DNA of 36,025 bases, taken from Acidimicrobiia bacterium (lineage in GTDB: Bacteria > Actinomycetota > Acidimicrobiia > IMCC26256 > JADLDD01). A program made the translations under genes and the position numbers. The notes beneath the pieces were generated by a model, which was not told where the DNA came from, did no database searches, and saw only the letters and a list, made by a program, of their open reading frames with translations. Positions 1,520 to 21,376 of this stretch are shown here, in pieces. Numbering within the stretch: the stretch's first letter is position 1; each line of letters starts with the position of its first letter. The DNA is taken from positions 1 to 36,025 of the forward strand of contig JADLDD010000018.1 in assembly GCA_020846855.1 (NCBI GenBank), read 5' to 3'.

Positions 1520-1783
1520 TCAGGCCGGACGGCGGCGGTGACGGAGGATGCGGCGCCGCTCGCGTTCGGTCAACCCGCCCCACACGCCGTACTTCTCGCG
1601 CGCGGCCAGGGCGTACTCCAGGCACGCCTCCCGCACGGGGCACTCGGCGCAGATGGCCTTGGCCGGGGCCGCGGCGTCGTCGTTCTCCTCGGTGTCGGGG
1701 TAGAACAAGTCGGTCGGAACGCCCCGGCAGCGCGCCTGCTGGCGCCAGGCCTGGTTGGTCGCCCGGTCGTGGATCGTGAGCAC
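1520..1783 (-). CDS. WhiB-family transcriptional regulator, WhiB2/WhmD-like
   Basis: An 87-residue WhiB-like [4Fe-4S] protein; these bind primary sigma factor region 4 and tune transcription. The four cluster cysteines are C19, C45, C48 and C54 (C-x25-C-x2-C-x5-C), followed by the turn GVWGG and a basic ERERRRILRHRR tail. The wording around the last cysteine (EACLEYAL, GGLTERERRR) looks most like the WhiB/WhmD branch linked to septation, but paralog assignment by eye is tentative. The GTG start at 1783 is set by a ribosome site AGGAGAGG five bases upstream. A GGAAT-N18-GTT promoter-like element lies 46-71 bp upstream of the start. It is divergent from the exchanger gene and 35 bp ahead of the ABC1 kinase. 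Confidence 0.93.
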   Translation of the reverse strand: MLTIHDRATNQAWRQQARCRGVPTDLFYPDTEENDDAAAPAKAICAECPVREACLEYALAAREKYGVWGGLTERERRRILRHRRRPA

Positions 1784-3794: not shown

Positions 3795-4192
<398 letters not shown>

Positions 4193-15500: not shown

Positions 15501-15948
15501 CGAACGCGCCCCAGAGGTCGAGGAGCTGGCGGCCGGGATCGTCGCCTGCCCGGCGGTAACGGGGCTCCTCGCCGCGGGCCCGTGGTGGCGGGAGGTGCCG
15601 GTCGCCGCTCCGCTCGGCGACGTCGTGGTCGAGGGCGTGGTCGACCTCCTCGTCGACACCCCGGGCGGGCTGGTGGTGGTCGACTACAAGACCGACCACC
15701 TGGCCGACGCGGCCGCCGTCGACGCCGCCCTGGAGCGGTACACGCCCCAGGGCGCGGCGTACGCGCATGCCCTGGTCGCCGCCACGGGCCGCCCGGTGAC
15801 GCGATGCGTGTTCGTGTTCGCCCGCCGCCCCGGACCGGCGCTCGCGCGCGAGGTCACCGACCTCGAGGGTGCGATCAGGCGTCTCCCCCGCGGCGCCCCG
15901 GGATCACCCGTCGTGGGGCCCGGCTCTCTCGATCTCGACCCGGTATAG
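12511..15948 (+). CDS. AddA/RecB-like UvrD-family helicase with C-terminal nuclease
   Basis: A 1145-residue superfamily 1 DNA helicase and nuclease, the motor of the predicted break-processing complex. Helicase motifs run in order: Walker A AGAGTGKTT (K55), Ia ITFTEAAAAELRDR, II LLIDEFQDTD (D389, E390), III GDPTQSIYRFRRAD, IV SVNFRS, V LLTIHGAKGLEFPVVVLAG and VI VLYVGATRARDHLL. A RecB-type nuclease follows: GTRIGRAVHAVLQH, D1045 in GVVDLLV and D1058/K1060 in VVVDYKTD. The start is the GTG overlapping the AddB-like stop; longer in-frame upstream sequence is a shadow. The 3' end overlaps the molybdoenzyme gene tail to tail by 45 bp. No recD or recC homologue is seen. Confidence 0.92.
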   Translation: MTAPGHRGPPEAGEPAEDAHRVGGSGPPADQAARDDVAGRLDLTLLVHAGAGTGKTTALVGRIVALVTSGTAELHEIAAITFTEAAAAELRDRVRSRLDDAAGDATLPPAARARARLARSQIDTSTLTTLHGFAQRILAEHPLEAGLPPRFRVLDDVEASLWFDRHWTGFVESLTTEPEWRSTLLRAHALGIGLPSLRAVALAIWDQTDRLGDGPTTLRPLPDLDLTEVFARREVVRGDLARCGDPSDRLALHAEALLAALAPLDHAHPPPGAPDDSLALDLLDVLDGYPRAAVAKRGRKGNWPDVGAAREHTAALGAAVDRILLGQRAAVFDRLLSRLHDFVTGLAAERLHEGVLTFQDLLVVARDLLRRDDGVRRACSSRYRRLLIDEFQDTDPLQAELALLLTSGDPEAGRLAWDTTRPRPGRLFVAGDPTQSIYRFRRADLGVYDRMEDLLAGGARELSVNFRSVPGVLEWVDHVFARLLEGAEPGVQAPHRALTAHRPPTGTAAPPVTVFGGPLDAPVGAVRNVEADAVAGAVHELVSCGWEVTDPSTGELRPARYRDVAILIPARSVLGALEAALEAAGIPARVESRSFVFDSPEVRELVGILTALDDPTDEVAVVGALRSPAFGCGDDDLLTFRRAGGRFDYREPAPAGLDGSHAVVAATAALHDLHREARWQRVSDTVAAVIARRRLFAVALGRRRPRDHWRRYRFLLDAARAFDDAGGAGHREFVEWAASRCDEGAQALESPGSEPDDDAVRLLTIHGAKGLEFPVVVLAGLQTSRRPLPGPVRWRTGGGYEVALGSTSAGSRVATAGYDALGAAEDALDAAERVRVLYVGATRARDHLLVSLHHPAGRPSHAATLHGLHAPFGDAPAGHREPGPAPGKPGRDHHRAAPGRAVAPAGANHADWLRERRALLERANRAATVPATRLAHASAAATHAATPPRVRAPGRRRGAAGTRIGRAVHAVLQHLDLPAATTLTRLAYEQAEAEGIPERAPEVEELAAGIVACPAVTGLLAAGPWWREVPVAAPLGDVVVEGVVDLLVDTPGGLVVVDYKTDHLADAAAVDAALERYTPQGAAYAHALVAATGRPVTRCVFVFARRPGPALAREVTDLEGAIRRLPRGAPGSPVVGPGSLDLDPV

Positions 15949-18636
15949 GCGGTCCGACTGCGTCGGTTGCCACATCATCGCCGCGTACCCCAGGTGCCCG
16001 TACCCGCCGGCGAACTGCAGCCACTTGACCATGCCCGGCTCCACCGCGGTCACGTCGGTCCACCCGGGGTAGAGGTACGGCTCCCACGAGGCGTAGAGCA
16101 CCACCTGGCCGGGGCGGACACCGGGCGAGATCTTGGCGTGCACCTTCATCTCGCCGAGGTCGTTCCAGATGCGGACCCAGTCGTTCTCTCCGATGCCGCG
16201 CTCGGCGGCGTCGGCGGGATGGATCTGCGCCGTGGGGTAGCCGCGGGTCGTCTCGAGCATGAGCGGGTTGGTGGTGTTGGTGGCGTGGATGCTCCAGCGC
16301 GGATGGCCGCCGGTGAGCTGGAACGGATAGTCGCCACCCATCGGGGGCGGGTCCTTGTGGACCGGCAGCTCCTCACCGGCCTCCAGGAACCAAGGGTGGT
16401 CGATGTGGAACTGGGCCCGGCCGGTGAGCGTCGGGTACGGGGTGCCCTTCTCGACGTGGTCGCGGTACGCCACGAACGGCTCGTCGGGGCGCAGCTCCGA
16501 GGCCATGGTCCCCCCCACCGCCCGGGGCAGGCGGTCCGGCCTGACCCATCCCGTCTCGCGCAGGCGGGCGACGGTGGTCCCCTCGGGGAGGTTCCCGGAC
16601 AGGACGCTGTCGGCGAGGATGTCGTCGAGAGCCGCCTCCTCGGTGGTGATCGTGCCCCCGAGCGTGTAGCCGTCGGCGACGCTCGCGTACGTGCGCCGCC
16701 CGCCCCGCCCGTCGGAGAAGTCGGCGAGGCCCCGCTCCGCGGCCCGCCGGCTGACCGCGGCCGAGAGGTCCTTGAAGATCCGCCAGTCGCTACGGGCCTC
16801 GCCGCGCGGCTCGAAGGCCCGGTCGGAGAGCATCCGCTCCCACGAGTGGCTGTTGGGGGCGTGGAGGTCGAGGCGCTCTCCCTCCACCGCCACGGGCAGG
16901 ACGATGTCGCCGTACATCCCGGTGGTGTTCATCCGGAAGTCGACCAGGACGATCATCTCGAGGTCGTCCCACAGGTGGCGCAGCATCTGGCGCTGGCCGC
17001 CCCGGGTGCGGCGCAGCGTGTCGGTGCCGACCTGGATCATCACCTGGGGCACGGTGTCGGGCTCGGGGCGCACCACACCTCCCCACCACCCGCGGCTGCG
17101 CGCCTCCTTCACGTACTCCCCGATGGGTCGGGGGCTGTCTCCCCATCCCTCGCGATCCCACACCTCGTCGAAGCCGCAGTGGTAGTAGAGGAAGAACGCC
17201 GGCGGGGTGGTGGTGCCCCCCGCCGCGCCGTGGCGCATGATCTGCTGGATGGCCCGGCCGTCGGTCATGGCCGGATCGGACGCCTTCATGGCGTCGAGGA
17301 GCGCGTCCATCCCCGACAGCGCGGCCTCGGCGTCGGACTCGCCCGCGGCCCGCTTCAGGAGGCCCGTCACCTCGCCGTCGATGAGGGCGATGATGTAGGT
17401 GTCCCAGCCGGCCCCGGGGCGGCCCCAGTTGCCGGTCAGACCGAGGACGAGGTCCATGGCCCGTTCCATGAGGTCGCCGTGGTAGTGCTTGCACGACCCC
17501 AGCCCGTTGTAGAGGCGGGTCCGGCCGCCGGCGACCAGGCGGGCGAGCTTGCGGATCACGTCGGCGTGCACACCGCACACCGCGGCGGCGTCCTCGGGCG
17601 CGTAGTCGCGCAGGCGCTCCAGCAGCCGGTCGTGAACGGTCCGCACCTCTACGGTGCTGCCGTCGGCGAGGGTGACCTCGTGGGCGCCCTCCAACTCGAC
17701 GTCGGTCGGGGCCTCGGGGTCGTCGAGGCGGGTCGCGTCGGCGGCCGCGAGCGCCCCGGCGCGCCACACGTAGAAGCGGTCGGCCCGGCCCGTAGGCTCC
17801 ACGTCGGATTCCCGCAGGAAACGGCCGTCGGGCATCACCAGGAACGGCAGGTCGGTCTGGGAGCACACGAACCCCCGGTCGACGAGGCCTTCGTCGATGA
17901 TCACCCGGCACATCGACAGCGCGAGCGCCACGTCGGTGCCCGGGGTGATCGGCACGTGGTAGTCGGTGTGCATCGCCGAGGGGCTGTAGTCGGGCGAGAT
18001 GAGCACGACGGTCGCCCCGCGGTAGCGCGCCTCGGCGAGGAAGTGGAAGTACGGGATGCGGGTGAAGGCGGGATTCGCGTTCCAGATCAGGATCACGTCG
18101 GAGCGGAACGTGTCGTCGGCGGCCGACCCGCCGAGGACCCCACCGAAGGTGATGTAGTGCCCGAGGTGGACGTCGCTGACCGTCGAGTTGCCGTCGAGGG
18201 CGACGGCGCCGATCGCCGACGCGAACCGTGACCGACCCATCGACGTGAGCGTCCCCCCCTGGGGACCCTCGTCGATCATCACCGAGGTGGCGCCCTCCTC
18301 CTCGTGGGCGTCGATGATGGCGTCGGCCACCGCGTCGAGGGCTTCGTCCCAGGTGATGTGCTCCCACTGCCCTCCGCCCCGCTCCCCGACGCGCCGCAGG
18401 GGATGGGTCACCCGGTCGCCGGTGTCGCGGTGGGTGTGCCAGACGGTCCCCTTCTGGCAGCCCAGGGGGTTGTAGTCGGGGACGCCGGCCAGGGCCGGCA
18501 TGTCGCCCGAGACCTCCTGGAAGACGGCCTCGCCGTCGGTGGTGTAGAGGTGGTAGCCGCAGTTGGCGATGCAGTTACCGCAGTGGGAGTGGCGCAGCGA
18601 GCGCTCCCACGTCCAGCGCTGTGCGATGTCCGGCAT
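15904..18636 (-). CDS. Type II DMSO-reductase-family molybdopterin oxidoreductase, orphan catalytic subunit
   Basis: A 910-residue molybdenum enzyme with bis-MGD cofactor. Near the N-terminus HCGNCIANCGY gives H18-x3-C22-x3-C26, with C60 in NPLGCQKGT: the FS0 cluster pattern of type II enzymes (nitrate, ethylbenzene, selenate, chlorate groups). C19 also makes a CxxCxxxC reading possible. The stretch NSTVSDVHLGHYITFGG probably carries the Asp molybdenum ligand. The C-terminus (PGMVKWLQFAGGYGHLGYA) also suits the type II branch. Unusually there is no Tat signal: the cluster begins 18 residues from the ATG and an in-frame TAA lies three codons upstream of it. No Fe-S beta subunit, heme gamma subunit or TorD-like chaperone gene is adjacent. 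Substrate unknown. Confidence 0.87.
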   Translation of the reverse strand: MPDIAQRWTWERSLRHSHCGNCIANCGYHLYTTDGEAVFQEVSGDMPALAGVPDYNPLGCQKGTVWHTHRDTGDRVTHPLRRVGERGGGQWEHITWDEALDAVADAIIDAHEEEGATSVMIDEGPQGGTLTSMGRSRFASAIGAVALDGNSTVSDVHLGHYITFGGVLGGSAADDTFRSDVILIWNANPAFTRIPYFHFLAEARYRGATVVLISPDYSPSAMHTDYHVPITPGTDVALALSMCRVIIDEGLVDRGFVCSQTDLPFLVMPDGRFLRESDVEPTGRADRFYVWRAGALAAADATRLDDPEAPTDVELEGAHEVTLADGSTVEVRTVHDRLLERLRDYAPEDAAAVCGVHADVIRKLARLVAGGRTRLYNGLGSCKHYHGDLMERAMDLVLGLTGNWGRPGAGWDTYIIALIDGEVTGLLKRAAGESDAEAALSGMDALLDAMKASDPAMTDGRAIQQIMRHGAAGGTTTPPAFFLYYHCGFDEVWDREGWGDSPRPIGEYVKEARSRGWWGGVVRPEPDTVPQVMIQVGTDTLRRTRGGQRQMLRHLWDDLEMIVLVDFRMNTTGMYGDIVLPVAVEGERLDLHAPNSHSWERMLSDRAFEPRGEARSDWRIFKDLSAAVSRRAAERGLADFSDGRGGRRTYASVADGYTLGGTITTEEAALDDILADSVLSGNLPEGTTVARLRETGWVRPDRLPRAVGGTMASELRPDEPFVAYRDHVEKGTPYPTLTGRAQFHIDHPWFLEAGEELPVHKDPPPMGGDYPFQLTGGHPRWSIHATNTTNPLMLETTRGYPTAQIHPADAAERGIGENDWVRIWNDLGEMKVHAKISPGVRPGQVVLYASWEPYLYPGWTDVTAVEPGMVKWLQFAGGYGHLGYAAMMWQPTQSDRLYRVEIERAGPHDG

Positions 18637-18878: not shown

Positions 18879-20264
18879 ATGGATCGCAACACCGGTCAAC
18901 GCCGCCGATCGCGGCTCCGGGGGCACCGGTCTTCGCCGTGGCTCCGGGGCGCGGCGTTCGCCGTGCTCGTCGCGGCCACGGCGTGGGTCTCGACCCCGGC
19001 TCCGGGTGTCGCCGCGTCCGACCCGCCGTCGAACGGCTGGGAGACGACGACCCCGGCATCCGCGGGCATGGACGCCGCGGTGCTCGACGGCGCGCGCGAC
19101 TTCGCCTTCCAACCCGGTCGGAACACGCAGGGTGTGGTCGTGGTCCGGGGCGGCCGGATCGTCGACGAGTGGTACGCGCCCGGCGAAGGGCCGGAATCCT
19201 GGTCGGCGAGCTGGTCGATGGCGAAGAGCGTCACCAGCGCGCTCATCGGGATCGCCATCGAGCAGGGTCGGATCGCCTCGGTCGACGAACCTCTGTCGAC
19301 GTGGTTCCCGGAGTGGGCCGGCACGGCGAAGGGGGCCATCACGCTCCAGGACGTCCTGCACATGGAATCGGGTCTCGACTGGAACGAGGACTACAACGTC
19401 AGCGCGATCGAGCGGTCCGACATCATCCGGATGGGGTTGTCGGCCGACCAACTCGACTACGCCCGTAGCCGGCCTATAGCCGCCCCACCGGGGACCCGCT
19501 TCCACTACTCGAGCGGCGACACGATGCTCCTCTCCGGCGTGCTCCAGGCCGCGACGGGCATGCCGGCCGACGAGTTCGCGCGCCGGTACCTCTTCGACCC
19601 CCTGGGGATCCGGCAGGTCGAGTGGTGGCGCGACGCCGAGGGCCACACCCTCACCTACTGCTGTCTCGACATGCCGAGCCGCGACTTCGCCCGCATCGGC
19701 CTGCTCTACCTCCGCGGCGGGAACTGGAACGGCACCCAGGTGCTGGCGGAGTCGTGGGTGCGGGCGTCGTTCGAACCCACCGAGGACTCCGACGGCGGGT
19801 ACGGGAACATGTGGTGGATCGGCACCATGCCCGAGGTCGAGGGCCGGATCTACTACGCGGTGGGCTTCGACGGGCAGTGGACGTACGTGATCCCGAGCCT
19901 CGACCTCGTGGTCGTCCGCAACGGCGACTACACGAAGAGCTGGTGCCCACCGGTCGCCGATCCCAACCTCTTCGGGCGGTACCCGCCCGCCGGCCTCTCG
20001 GCGGAAGCCGGAACCCGCCCGCCCGCGTCCTGGAACGAGGGCGACTTCCTCCGGCCGATAGTCGAGTCGGTCACCGGACCCCCCACCGGCGAGGCCGCGA
20101 CCCCGGACCCGGAGGACCCGCCCCGCCGCCGTGACCCCGAGGGTCAGAGGATGGCGCCCTGCCCGGCGGCGGCGACGATCACGGTGTCGCCCGAGACGAC
20201 GACCCCGCCGGCCACGGCGCCCCCCGCCCGGGCCGTCGTGGCCGGAGCCCGCTACACCGGCTGA
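18879..20264 (+). CDS. Secreted serine hydrolase, beta-lactamase class C/esterase family
   Basis: A 461-residue serine hydrolase of the beta-lactamase/penicillin-binding-like family (esterases, D-aminopeptidases, class C enzymes). An Arg-rich N-terminus followed by a hydrophobic run and an APGVAAS end (about residue 47) forms a Sec-type signal peptide. The nucleophile motif SMAKS gives SxxK; HYSSGD provides the tyrosine motif; GFDGQW is at the place of the third motif. The C-terminal 80 residues are Pro/Thr/Ala-rich and probably unstructured. The ATG is set by GGGAGG four bases upstream. True beta-lactamase activity should not be assumed. It stands alone, divergent from the molybdoenzyme. Confidence 0.88.
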   Translation: MDRNTGQRRRSRLRGHRSSPWLRGAAFAVLVAATAWVSTPAPGVAASDPPSNGWETTTPASAGMDAAVLDGARDFAFQPGRNTQGVVVVRGGRIVDEWYAPGEGPESWSASWSMAKSVTSALIGIAIEQGRIASVDEPLSTWFPEWAGTAKGAITLQDVLHMESGLDWNEDYNVSAIERSDIIRMGLSADQLDYARSRPIAAPPGTRFHYSSGDTMLLSGVLQAATGMPADEFARRYLFDPLGIRQVEWWRDAEGHTLTYCCLDMPSRDFARIGLLYLRGGNWNGTQVLAESWVRASFEPTEDSDGGYGNMWWIGTMPEVEGRIYYAVGFDGQWTYVIPSLDLVVVRNGDYTKSWCPPVADPNLFGRYPPAGLSAEAGTRPPASWNEGDFLRPIVESVTGPPTGEAATPDPEDPPRRRDPEGQRMAPCPAAATITVSPETTTPPATAPPARAVVAGARYTG

Positions 20265-20381
20265 CCGGAGCCCCGCACTCGCCGAGCCGGCCGGATCGGC
20301 GGCAGTCCGTCGTGCGGACGGCAACCCCCGGAGCGCTGCGGGCCGGGGTGCTCGCCTGCACCCGGCCGGCGGTCTCCCCGG

Positions 20382-20455
20382 TGGGCGCTGGCGGGCTCGA
20401 ACCGCCGACCTCCTCCTTGTAAGAGAGGCGCTCTACCAAGCTGAGCTAAACGCCC
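20382..20455 (-). tRNA. tRNA-Val (anticodon UAC)
   Basis: A 74-nt cloverleaf on the minus strand: acceptor GGGCGTT paired with AGCGCCC, D-arm GCTC/GAGC, anticodon stem CCTCT/GGAGG around loop CTTACAA (anticodon TAC), T-arm GGCGG-TTCGAGC-CCGCC, discriminator A. The 3' CCA is not encoded. A possible -10, TACCCT, lies 11-16 bases upstream of the 5' end. Confidence 0.96.
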
Positions 20456-20573: not shown

Positions 20574-20900
20574 CTACGCGGACAGGCCCTCGGACCAGTG
20601 GTCGAAGTACGGGTCGGGTCGGCGGACCTTCGGGGGACGGCCGCGGCGCGGGATCTCGAGTTGGACCCGTCCGTCGGCTACGAGCTCGCCACCCCAGACC
20701 CCGCACGGCTCCTCCCGTTCCAGGGCCGACTCCAGGCAGGGCCGCCGGACGGGGCAGGCCCGGCAGAACGCCTTGGCCCGGCCGATGTCGTCGCGGTCGT
20801 CGGAGAAGAACAGCGCGACCAGCGAGGCCGCGCCGTCGCGGCAGCGCGCGTCGACCCGCCAGGCCTCGGTGTCCGTCTCGGTGGGCTCGAGGATGATCAT
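20574..20900 (-). CDS. whiB7: WhiB7-like transcriptional activator with AT-hook
   Basis: A 108-residue WhiB-family regulator. Cluster cysteines are C20, C46, C49 and C55. The run EEPCGVWGGE followed by an AT-hook RRGRPPK is the signature of WhiB7/WblC, the activator of intrinsic antibiotic resistance that binds SigA and AT-rich DNA just upstream of the -35. About 15 extra residues follow the hook (PDPYFDHWSEGLSA). The start is fixed by GAGGAGAA about five bases before the ATG. Upstream lies an unusually long leader (to about 21276) with a 50-codon uORF and hairpins, the arrangement by which whiB7/wblC is induced by ribosome inhibitors. Paralog identity rests on motif reading, not a tree. Confidence 0.88.
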   Translation of the reverse strand: MIILEPTETDTEAWRVDARCRDGAASLVALFFSDDRDDIGRAKAFCRACPVRRPCLESALEREEPCGVWGGELVADGRVQLEIPRRGRPPKVRRPDPYFDHWSEGLSA

Positions 20901-21008
20901 GGGGGTTCTCCTCTCGCTCTCGGGTGCTTCGTCGGGTCGGGCCCGGTACCGGGTGGGCGGGTCGATGGGCGGAGGGGCGGGCGGTCGAACGGTGGCGGAC
21001 GACGAGAA

Positions 21009-21033
21009 GGCCGCCGGGGAGGTCCCGGCGGCC
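21009..21033 (-). terminator. Attenuator-type hairpin in the whiB7 leader
   Basis: Minus-strand GGCCGCCGGG pairs perfectly with CCCGGCGGCC around a 5-nt loop, followed by TTCTCGTCGT, a poor but pyrimidine-rich tail. It lies 26 bases after the uORF stop and about 110 bases before the whiB7 start, where a regulated terminator is expected in this kind of leader. Confidence 0.6.
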
Positions 21034-21059
21034 TGGGTGTCGATCGGGGTAGCGGAGCG

Positions 21060-21212
21060 CTACGGCGAGATCACCAGGGGCCGGGCCCGTACGGGGTCGT
21101 CGTGCTTGTGGATGCGGTACATCCACGACGACCCCGAAACGGCCACGAACCGGGCACCGGCACGCGCGAAGCCGGCGACGAGACGGTCGTCGAGAGCCGG
21201 GGTCGCGTACAT
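21060..21212 (-). CDS. Leader ORF (50 aa) upstream of whiB7-like gene
   Basis: A short ORF beginning MYATPALDDR and ending RARPLVISP, with strong GC bias at third positions and a GAAAGAGG ribosome-like site nine bases upstream, so it is probably translated. It contains a distinctive WMYRIHKHDD stretch. It sits between a strong upstream hairpin and the terminator-like hairpin in the whiB7 leader. WhiB7/WblC leaders in mycobacteria and streptomycetes contain a translated uORF whose stalling relieves termination; by position this is its counterpart, though longer than the mycobacterial one. Alternatively it encodes a small independent protein. I recognise no family. Confidence 0.6.
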   Translation of the reverse strand: MYATPALDDRLVAGFARAGARFVAVSGSSWMYRIHKHDDPVRARPLVISP

Positions 21213-21239
21213 GTCCGGGGGCCTCTTTCGGGGTTCGGG

Positions 21240-21260
21240 CCCCGGCGCCGTGCGCCGGGG
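21240..21260 (-). promoter_or_regulatory. Strong hairpin 5' of the whiB7 leader ORF
   Basis: CCCCGGCGC and GCGCCGGGG form a perfect 9-bp stem with a 3-nt loop, 27 bases upstream of the leader ORF start. A smaller hairpin (CTGGTG/CACCAG, about 21268-21282) lies just before it. These structures make the leader unusually folded. Confidence 0.55.
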
Positions 21261-21281
21261 ACCACCGCTGGTGCCCCACCA

Positions 21282-21318
21282 GGAAACCAGGCCCGCCCCG
21301 GGGCGGTCAACCGATTAT
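21282..21318 (-). promoter_or_regulatory. Candidate WhiB7-autoregulated promoter of the whiB7 leader
   Basis: On the minus strand an AT-rich ATAAT (21318-21314) is followed by three bases and then TTGACC (21310-21305), a near-consensus -35. AT-rich DNA three bases upstream of the -35 is the hallmark of WhiB7-activated promoters, including its own. The -10, 17-18 bases on, is poor (GTTTCC/TTTCCT), as expected for an activator-dependent promoter. A CCGCCCCGGGGCGG palindrome (21293-21306) overlaps the -35 and spacer. GATAAT could instead serve as a -10 itself. Confidence 0.5.
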
Positions 21319-21376
21319 CCCTACCCACCGCTCGGGCGCCGGTGAACGGGCGCGGAGCGCCGGCTGCGGGGTGGCG

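Follow-up and report, generated by a model that had tools for sequence, protein, structure and literature searches.

The whiB7 gene of this Acidimicrobiia genome lies behind a long leader that we read, with a probability of about 0.9, as a ribosome-controlled transcription attenuator. In this leader, the last codons of a short upstream open reading frame (uORF) are predicted to pair with the 5' arm of an intrinsic terminator, and one base pair of this putative antiterminator covaries among related leaders. The mechanism is already known: it is the published whiB7/wblC attenuation design, and the leader is a member of it.

The window, that is, the whole stretch of 36,025 nucleotides that was analysed, comes from a 2.35-Mb bin with a completeness of 83%. 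The comparison set included no second genome of its family, and its nearest named relatives are Acidimicrobiia and Actinomycetota metagenome-assembled genomes (MAGs). At the level of the order, a whiB7 match was found in 44 of 58 genomes and 44 loci were compared; the leader was readable through uORF and terminator in 37 of them, and some of the others end at contig ends. All sequences are MAGs, uORF starts were set by rule, the ribosome footprints used in folding were assumed, and several tests ignored kinship among leaders. The features of the locus are the following.

21314-21319, minus strand: AT box GATAAT, predicted WhiB7-binding element 3 bp before the -35 element, read from the sequence and found in 37/44 order leaders
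21305-21310, minus strand: -35 element TTGACC, conserved, with an inferred start site near 21272
21240-21260, minus strand: 9-bp hairpin CCCCGGCGC/GCGCCGGGG upstream of the uORF, present, not conserved and probably incidental
21222-21227, minus strand: Shine-Dalgarno (SD)-like AAGAGG of the uORF, read from the sequence
21060-21212, minus strand: uORF of 50 codons, MYATPALDDRLVAGFARAGARFVAVSGSSWMYRIHKHDDPVRARPLVISP, with homologues in 37 order leaders
21161-21168, minus strand: CGCGCG element about 46-52 nt from the uORF ATG, in the window CGCGCGTG (CGCGTG in register), conserved across codon boundaries, putative RNA-polymerase pause site
21093-21135, minus strand: hairpin P1 inside the uORF, pairing the Trp-codon side with the Lys-codon side, in 34/37 leaders
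21074-21085, minus strand: predicted antiterminator 5' strand CCCGGCCCCTGG in the last uORF codons, from duplex energy and covariation
21049-21063, minus strand: hairpin P2 at the uORF stop, GTAGCG CTC CGCTAC, with two-sided changes at 4/5 pairs
21008-21034, minus strand: intrinsic terminator stem AGGCCGCCGGG-acctc-CCCGGCGGCCT of 10-11 bp, 25 nt after the uORF stop, with the tail TCTCGTC
20908-20915, minus strand: whiB7 ribosome-binding site GAGAGGAG, read from the sequence
20574-20900, minus strand: whiB7 gene, 108 aa, carrying EEPCGVWGGE and RRGRPPK

The antiterminator strand within the uORF, the hairpin between Trp and Lys codons, the hairpin at the stop codon and the hexamer go beyond the first-pass annotation of this DNA.

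WhiB7 identity and promoter

The first-pass annotation had called the gene WhiB7-like from its EEPCGVWGGE and RRGRPPK signatures. The 108-aa protein contains a Pfam Whib domain (63 bits), and its best PDB match is M. tuberculosis WhiB7 (7kif, E 3e-13), with 53 bits compared to 33 for WhiB3 and an alignment that spans the AT-hook; a search of NCBIfam gave no WhiB7 model match. We then placed the protein in a tree with five other WhiBs of the same genome and 25 WhiB7-like proteins from the order, class and phylum. A 100/99 branch has every WhiB7-like protein, that of the window among them, on one side, apart from the genome's own paralogues; the window protein forms a long branch within the order (0.97). 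A position outside the WhiB7/WblC clade had been named as a result that would speak against the annotation; the tree put the protein within the WhiB7 clade (100/99). Together with the PDB match, this confirms the earlier call, and by sequence comparison the gene is a true WhiB7.

The genome carries seven WhiB genes, and a second one in the window, a paralogue and not WhiB7, lies near the contig start at 1526-1759 (-). Two to three WhiB7-like genes per genome occur in three class-level genomes of family f20 (G059, G078 and G147; loci L132, L133 and L145), some of them in tandem about 1 kb apart. Downstream of whiB7, a tRNA-Val (anticodon tac, 20380-20455, -) lies on the same strand at a distance of about 120 nt, and a beta-lactamase-family serine hydrolase of 461 aa (18879-20264, +) and a molybdopterin oxidoreductase of 910 aa (15904-18636, -) are also found on that side. 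The window also contains a class A RNase P RNA at 3800-4191 (+), with 240.7 bits.

The promoter reads GATAAT-CGG-TTGACC at 21319-21305, and the earlier reading of an ATAAT three bases before TTGACC as the layout of WhiB7 targets was borne out: an AT-rich box stands 3 bp before a TTGAC-like -35 element in 37/44 order leaders. In the aligned promoters, TTG was found in 37/37, the following A in 35/37 and C in 34/37. It has been documented that the WhiB7 promoter layout in M. abscessus has an AT-rich element 3 bp upstream of the -35 element (PMC10727445), and the same layout is described for WblC in S. coelicolor (PMC7157823). The distance from the inferred start site to the gene is about 370 nt, in agreement with the leader of about 375 nt first estimated. 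A simple sigma-70 scan of the leader found no consensus match because the -10 element is weak; no good -10 was seen.

We also searched for a WhiB7 regulon through the promoter motif. The 2.35-Mb genome contains two copies of WAATNNNTTGAC: one is at whiB7, and the other lies between an ArsR-like regulator gene and a methyltransferase gene, both named by eye (L178, G000:C63). The latter site is perhaps an ArsR operator and was judged unrelated, and this search for a regulon yielded nothing beyond whiB7 itself.

uORF, terminator and antiterminator

The leader on the minus strand folds better than its shuffles (z -3.8, 0/100 shuffles). An Rfam search of the leader gave no family at the gathering threshold, and the best match in evalue mode was RcsR1, with 21 bits against a cut-off of 60.

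The 50-codon uORF with its own ribosome-binding-like site, as previously described, is present, and aligning the leaders of relatives, which had been suggested as a check, recovered both uORF and terminator in 37 order loci. Nearly all order members retain the ATG, its SD-like site and an open frame about 50-70 codons long. The leader-peptide alignment shows conserved AGxxR, W, K and PRR, and the family HMM matches the window uORF, which is among the HMM seeds. A third-codon-position excess, looked for in the uORF as proof of coding, was not seen, and close pairs differ about equally often at the three codon positions (74, 78, 87). We infer that the uORF is translated from its conserved frame, start, SD-like site and stop position, and not from codon statistics.

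The family HMM also found the leader peptide in other orders of Acidimicrobiia, with E values down to 6e-5, and gave no convincing match among Actinomycetia leader ORFs, an absence that is weak evidence since the peptides are short. The leader peptide thus looks like a new, class-wide family of Acidimicrobiia in which no similarity to the leader peptides of other classes was detected. In mycobacteria, an alanine-rich whiB7 uORF is reported to sense alanine starvation; alanine accounts for about 15% of the Acidimicrobiia leader peptides.

Inside the uORF, hairpin P1 has more than 4 expected pairs between the Trp- and Lys-codon regions in 34/37 leaders, and this pairing can explain why the Trp and Lys codons are nearly invariant. 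The window holds a longer, altered version of P1 (z -4.0 against mononucleotide shuffles). The 9-bp hairpin that had been noted upstream of the uORF does exist at 21260-21240, but it is not conserved in relatives: a stem of at least 8 bp was found in 5/37 leaders, with a mean close to that of shuffled sequences, and it was rejected as a conserved element.

The perfect 10-bp hairpin that the first-pass annotation had placed between uORF stop and gene was confirmed as a stem of 10-11 bp at 21034-21008. A terminator stem is found in 37/37 leaders at a median of 25 nt after the uORF stop, with 94% of alignment cells paired, and about 90% of members have 23-31 nt between stop and terminator. The U-tract of the window is poor (TCTCGTC, 3 T in 8), so a simple terminator scan of the leader found nothing; most relatives have a better one. 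Among leaders sampled from other families in the class, 34/40 have a stem whose tail is T-rich, usually 25-36 nt past a uORF stop.

The last uORF codons mostly encode Pro-Arg-Arg as GCCCCGRCGGC and resemble the 3' arm of the terminator, and therefore they can pair with its 5' arm (21024-21034), which would be common to both structures. We compared the duplex energy with that of synonymous recodings and found a mean of -26.3 against -20.7 kcal/mol, better in 34/37 leaders (Wilcoxon 1.6e-9, a value that overstates independence because the sequences are related). The window duplex, at -23.9 kcal/mol, is weaker than many of its relatives (synonymous-recoding p 0.08). In a MAFFT alignment, 86.5% of antiterminator cells were paired, compared to 26-51% with slid partners. 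Hairpin P2 is nested in the antiterminator and has only 70% of its alignment cells paired.

To these energies the alignment adds covariation. One pair between the uORF and the arm is A-U in 14 of the 37 leaders, G-C in 20, G-U in 2, C-C in 1 and A-C in none (Fisher 3e-8, kinship ignored), and the 3' arm of the terminator keeps G opposite the varying 5'-arm base throughout. The uORF thus matches the change in the 5' arm and the terminator merely tolerates it through G-U, which is direct support for uORF-arm pairing. When the A-U label was mapped on the WhiB7 tree, 7 changes were counted, at least 5 of them forced on supported branches. In a phylogenetically strict sign test on independent pairs of leaders, both bases change together in 4-5 of 5, otherwise one stays, and none is opposed, a sample of five that cannot reach 0.05.

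Folding had been recommended as a check for a mutually exclusive antiterminator, and it pointed to one inside the uORF, the strand that covaries with the terminator 5' arm. In transcripts ending in the terminator loop, with the 3' arm absent, the antiterminator forms in 36/37 leaders (14.6 expected pairs in the window), and an assumed ribosome on the stop codon roughly halves it. In ensemble folding with a ribosome footprint on the stop, the terminator has a probability of at least 0.8 in 37/37 leaders and almost no antiterminator remains. Once the leader is complete, equilibrium folding favours the terminator in most members, including the window, so the antiterminator would have to win kinetically and readthrough would depend on timing.

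A model of the antiterminator-terminator region gave strong matches (E below 1e-5) in 39/58 order genomes, one per whiB7 leader. These adjoin whiB7 in all but three genomes, G005, G017 and G032, in which no whiB7 turned up on the contig of the match; in G005 the contig ends 8 nt from the match, and the whiB7 of G032 is cut off 94 nt into another contig. In the 58 order genomes, no strong match was thus shown to lie away from whiB7.

A conserved CGCGCG element within the uORF

With two exceptions among 35 leaders, the hexamer CGCGCG sits 48-54 nt past the uORF ATG. Each of its six positions, which span three codons, is identical in 34 or 35 of the 35, and in register the window, with CGCGTG, is the one exception. 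The conserved Arg is written CGC in 34/35 leaders; the share of CGC is 33% in the whiB7 genes and 25% in the remainder of these uORFs (p at most about 1e-15, relatedness ignored). In leaders from other orders, CGCGCG was found at a similar distance in 9/22, against 0.7 expected; it was absent from 9 further leaders beyond the order set, most of them from outside the class (0/9).

The elemental RNA-polymerase pause consensus has G at -10, Y at -1 and G at +1 (PMC12288461). At these spacings, the alignment holds G at -10 in 32/35, C at -1 in 35/35 and G at +1 in 35/35 leaders. The element, conserved at the nucleotide level, thus resembles an elemental pause signal. We tentatively suggest, as a possibility that we hold at somewhat less than even odds, that Acidimicrobiia whiB7 leaders contain a hard-wired pause (CGCGCG with a G 10 nt upstream) that keeps polymerase waiting for a ribosome to load on the uORF. 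As far as checked, such a pause-like element is apparently undescribed for other whiB7 leaders.

Probable attenuation mechanism and relation to known systems

The conserved promoter, uORF and terminator and the covarying antiterminator support the earlier interpretation of an attenuator-style leader with a self-activating promoter. By analogy with other genera, WhiB7 at the AT box beside the -35 element would drive its own promoter. RNA polymerase would transcribe the short uORF, with ribosomes translating it and a pause at CGCGCG possibly giving them time to load. A ribosome that reaches the stop would cover the last uORF codons, the terminator would fold, and transcription would end before whiB7. 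If the ribosome stalls early or is not loaded, the free last codons would pair with the 5' arm of the terminator, and the antiterminator so formed would let whiB7 be transcribed. The trigger would presumably be ribosome-targeting antibiotics or a lack of charged tRNA; antibiotics and starvation are triggers drawn from other genera (PMC11550727, PMC13393426).

We weighed this reading against three others. The terminator might be real and the uORF no sensor, with its conservation reflecting RNA structure and termination governed by another factor, such as Rho, NusG or a leader-binding protein. The even spread of close-pair differences over codon positions (74, 78, 87) would fit this, as would the fact that conservation is strongest at the nucleotide level, in the hexamer and the antiterminator. 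However, nearly all members preserve the ATG, the SD-like site and the frame of about 50-70 codons, and the spacing of 23-31 nt between stop and terminator that about 90% of them show is a geometry that is sensible only if a ribosome reaches the stop. Because the same design is also established experimentally for whiB7/wblC elsewhere (PMC11550727, PMC10727445), we consider a non-sensing uORF very unlikely. Decay of this particular leader, with whiB7 nearly always terminated or constitutively expressed, is suggested by the long branch of the window WhiB7 (0.97), the poor U-tract, the changed P1 and the in-register change in the hexamer. Yet the family model, which includes the window among its members, gives the region 65 bits, the antiterminator still forms in folding before the 3' arm exists (14.6 expected pairs), and open frames and promoter are intact, which makes erosion of the attenuator highly improbable.

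The third possibility would refine the attenuator and not replace it: the peptide itself might sense macrolides by R-x-R-like nascent-chain arrest, as in some erm leaders. A motif [RK]x[RK] is present in the N-terminal half of 16/36 leader peptides, against 6.0 expected by shuffling, and an Arg is conserved in 35/36. But fewer than half of the peptides carry the motif and the window peptide has RAGAR, not R-x-R, while the Arg codon is constrained as nucleotides (CGC in 34/35), which peptide selection alone does not explain; we regard a sensing peptide as rather unlikely. The ribosome-controlled attenuator is thus the reading that we prefer.

A uORF and a terminator typically stand upstream of actinobacterial whiB7, and overlapping uORF/terminator sequence provides the antiterminator (PMC10727445). 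The window leader shares with the attenuator described for Mycobacterium and Streptomyces (Lee 2022, Burian 2018, summarised in PMC11550727 and PMC10727445) the WhiB7 gene, the long leader, the AT box 3 bp before the -35 element, the uORF, the Rho-independent terminator just after it and the overlapping antiterminator. Compared through these published summaries, it differs in its Acidimicrobiia leader-peptide family and its conserved CGCGCG. A mycobacteria-like whiB7 uORF beside a UvrD helicase gene (L161, alanine-rich, MIGNNAFGVGMVAHAAHAAHAAVPAAAVKHRVAAATEASVDRGST) is similar in position and size, with 45 codons; however, it has no detected sequence similarity to the Acidimicrobiia peptide and lacks CGCGCG. 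Four mycobacteria-like whiB7 uORFs (L161, L164, L168 and L172) have K-H-R or R-K-R near the middle, like macrolide arrest motifs. The ARE-ABCF leaders of lmrC, vmlR, are5sc and tiaA likewise use a ribosome-mediated terminator/antiterminator switch (PMC12421871), but they precede other genes, and the uORFs of are5sc and tiaA have just 3-9 codons and stall at the start codon (PMC12421871).

In the two papers found that name both whiB7 and Acidimicrobi*, the Acidimicrobiia whiB7 leader was not a topic of titles or abstracts. The first-pass suggestion that the sensing element may be a new version holds for the class-wide peptide family and CGCGCG, but not for the regulatory design, which is the published one. 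What is added is the class-specific peptide family, the covariation evidence, the Trp-Lys hairpin and the hexamer, and their newness, judged from published summaries, is modest.

With these findings, the ribosome-sensing switch known from the main antibiotic-stress regulator of actinobacteria reaches a class that is mostly uncultured, and the covarying uORF-terminator pair provides comparative evidence for its antiterminator. The hexamer is nearly invariant and keeps a fixed distance from the uORF start, and it could be what coordinates polymerase and ribosome in these leaders. If the pause is true, the attenuator would read the arrival of the ribosome as well as its progress, through an element written across three leader codons.
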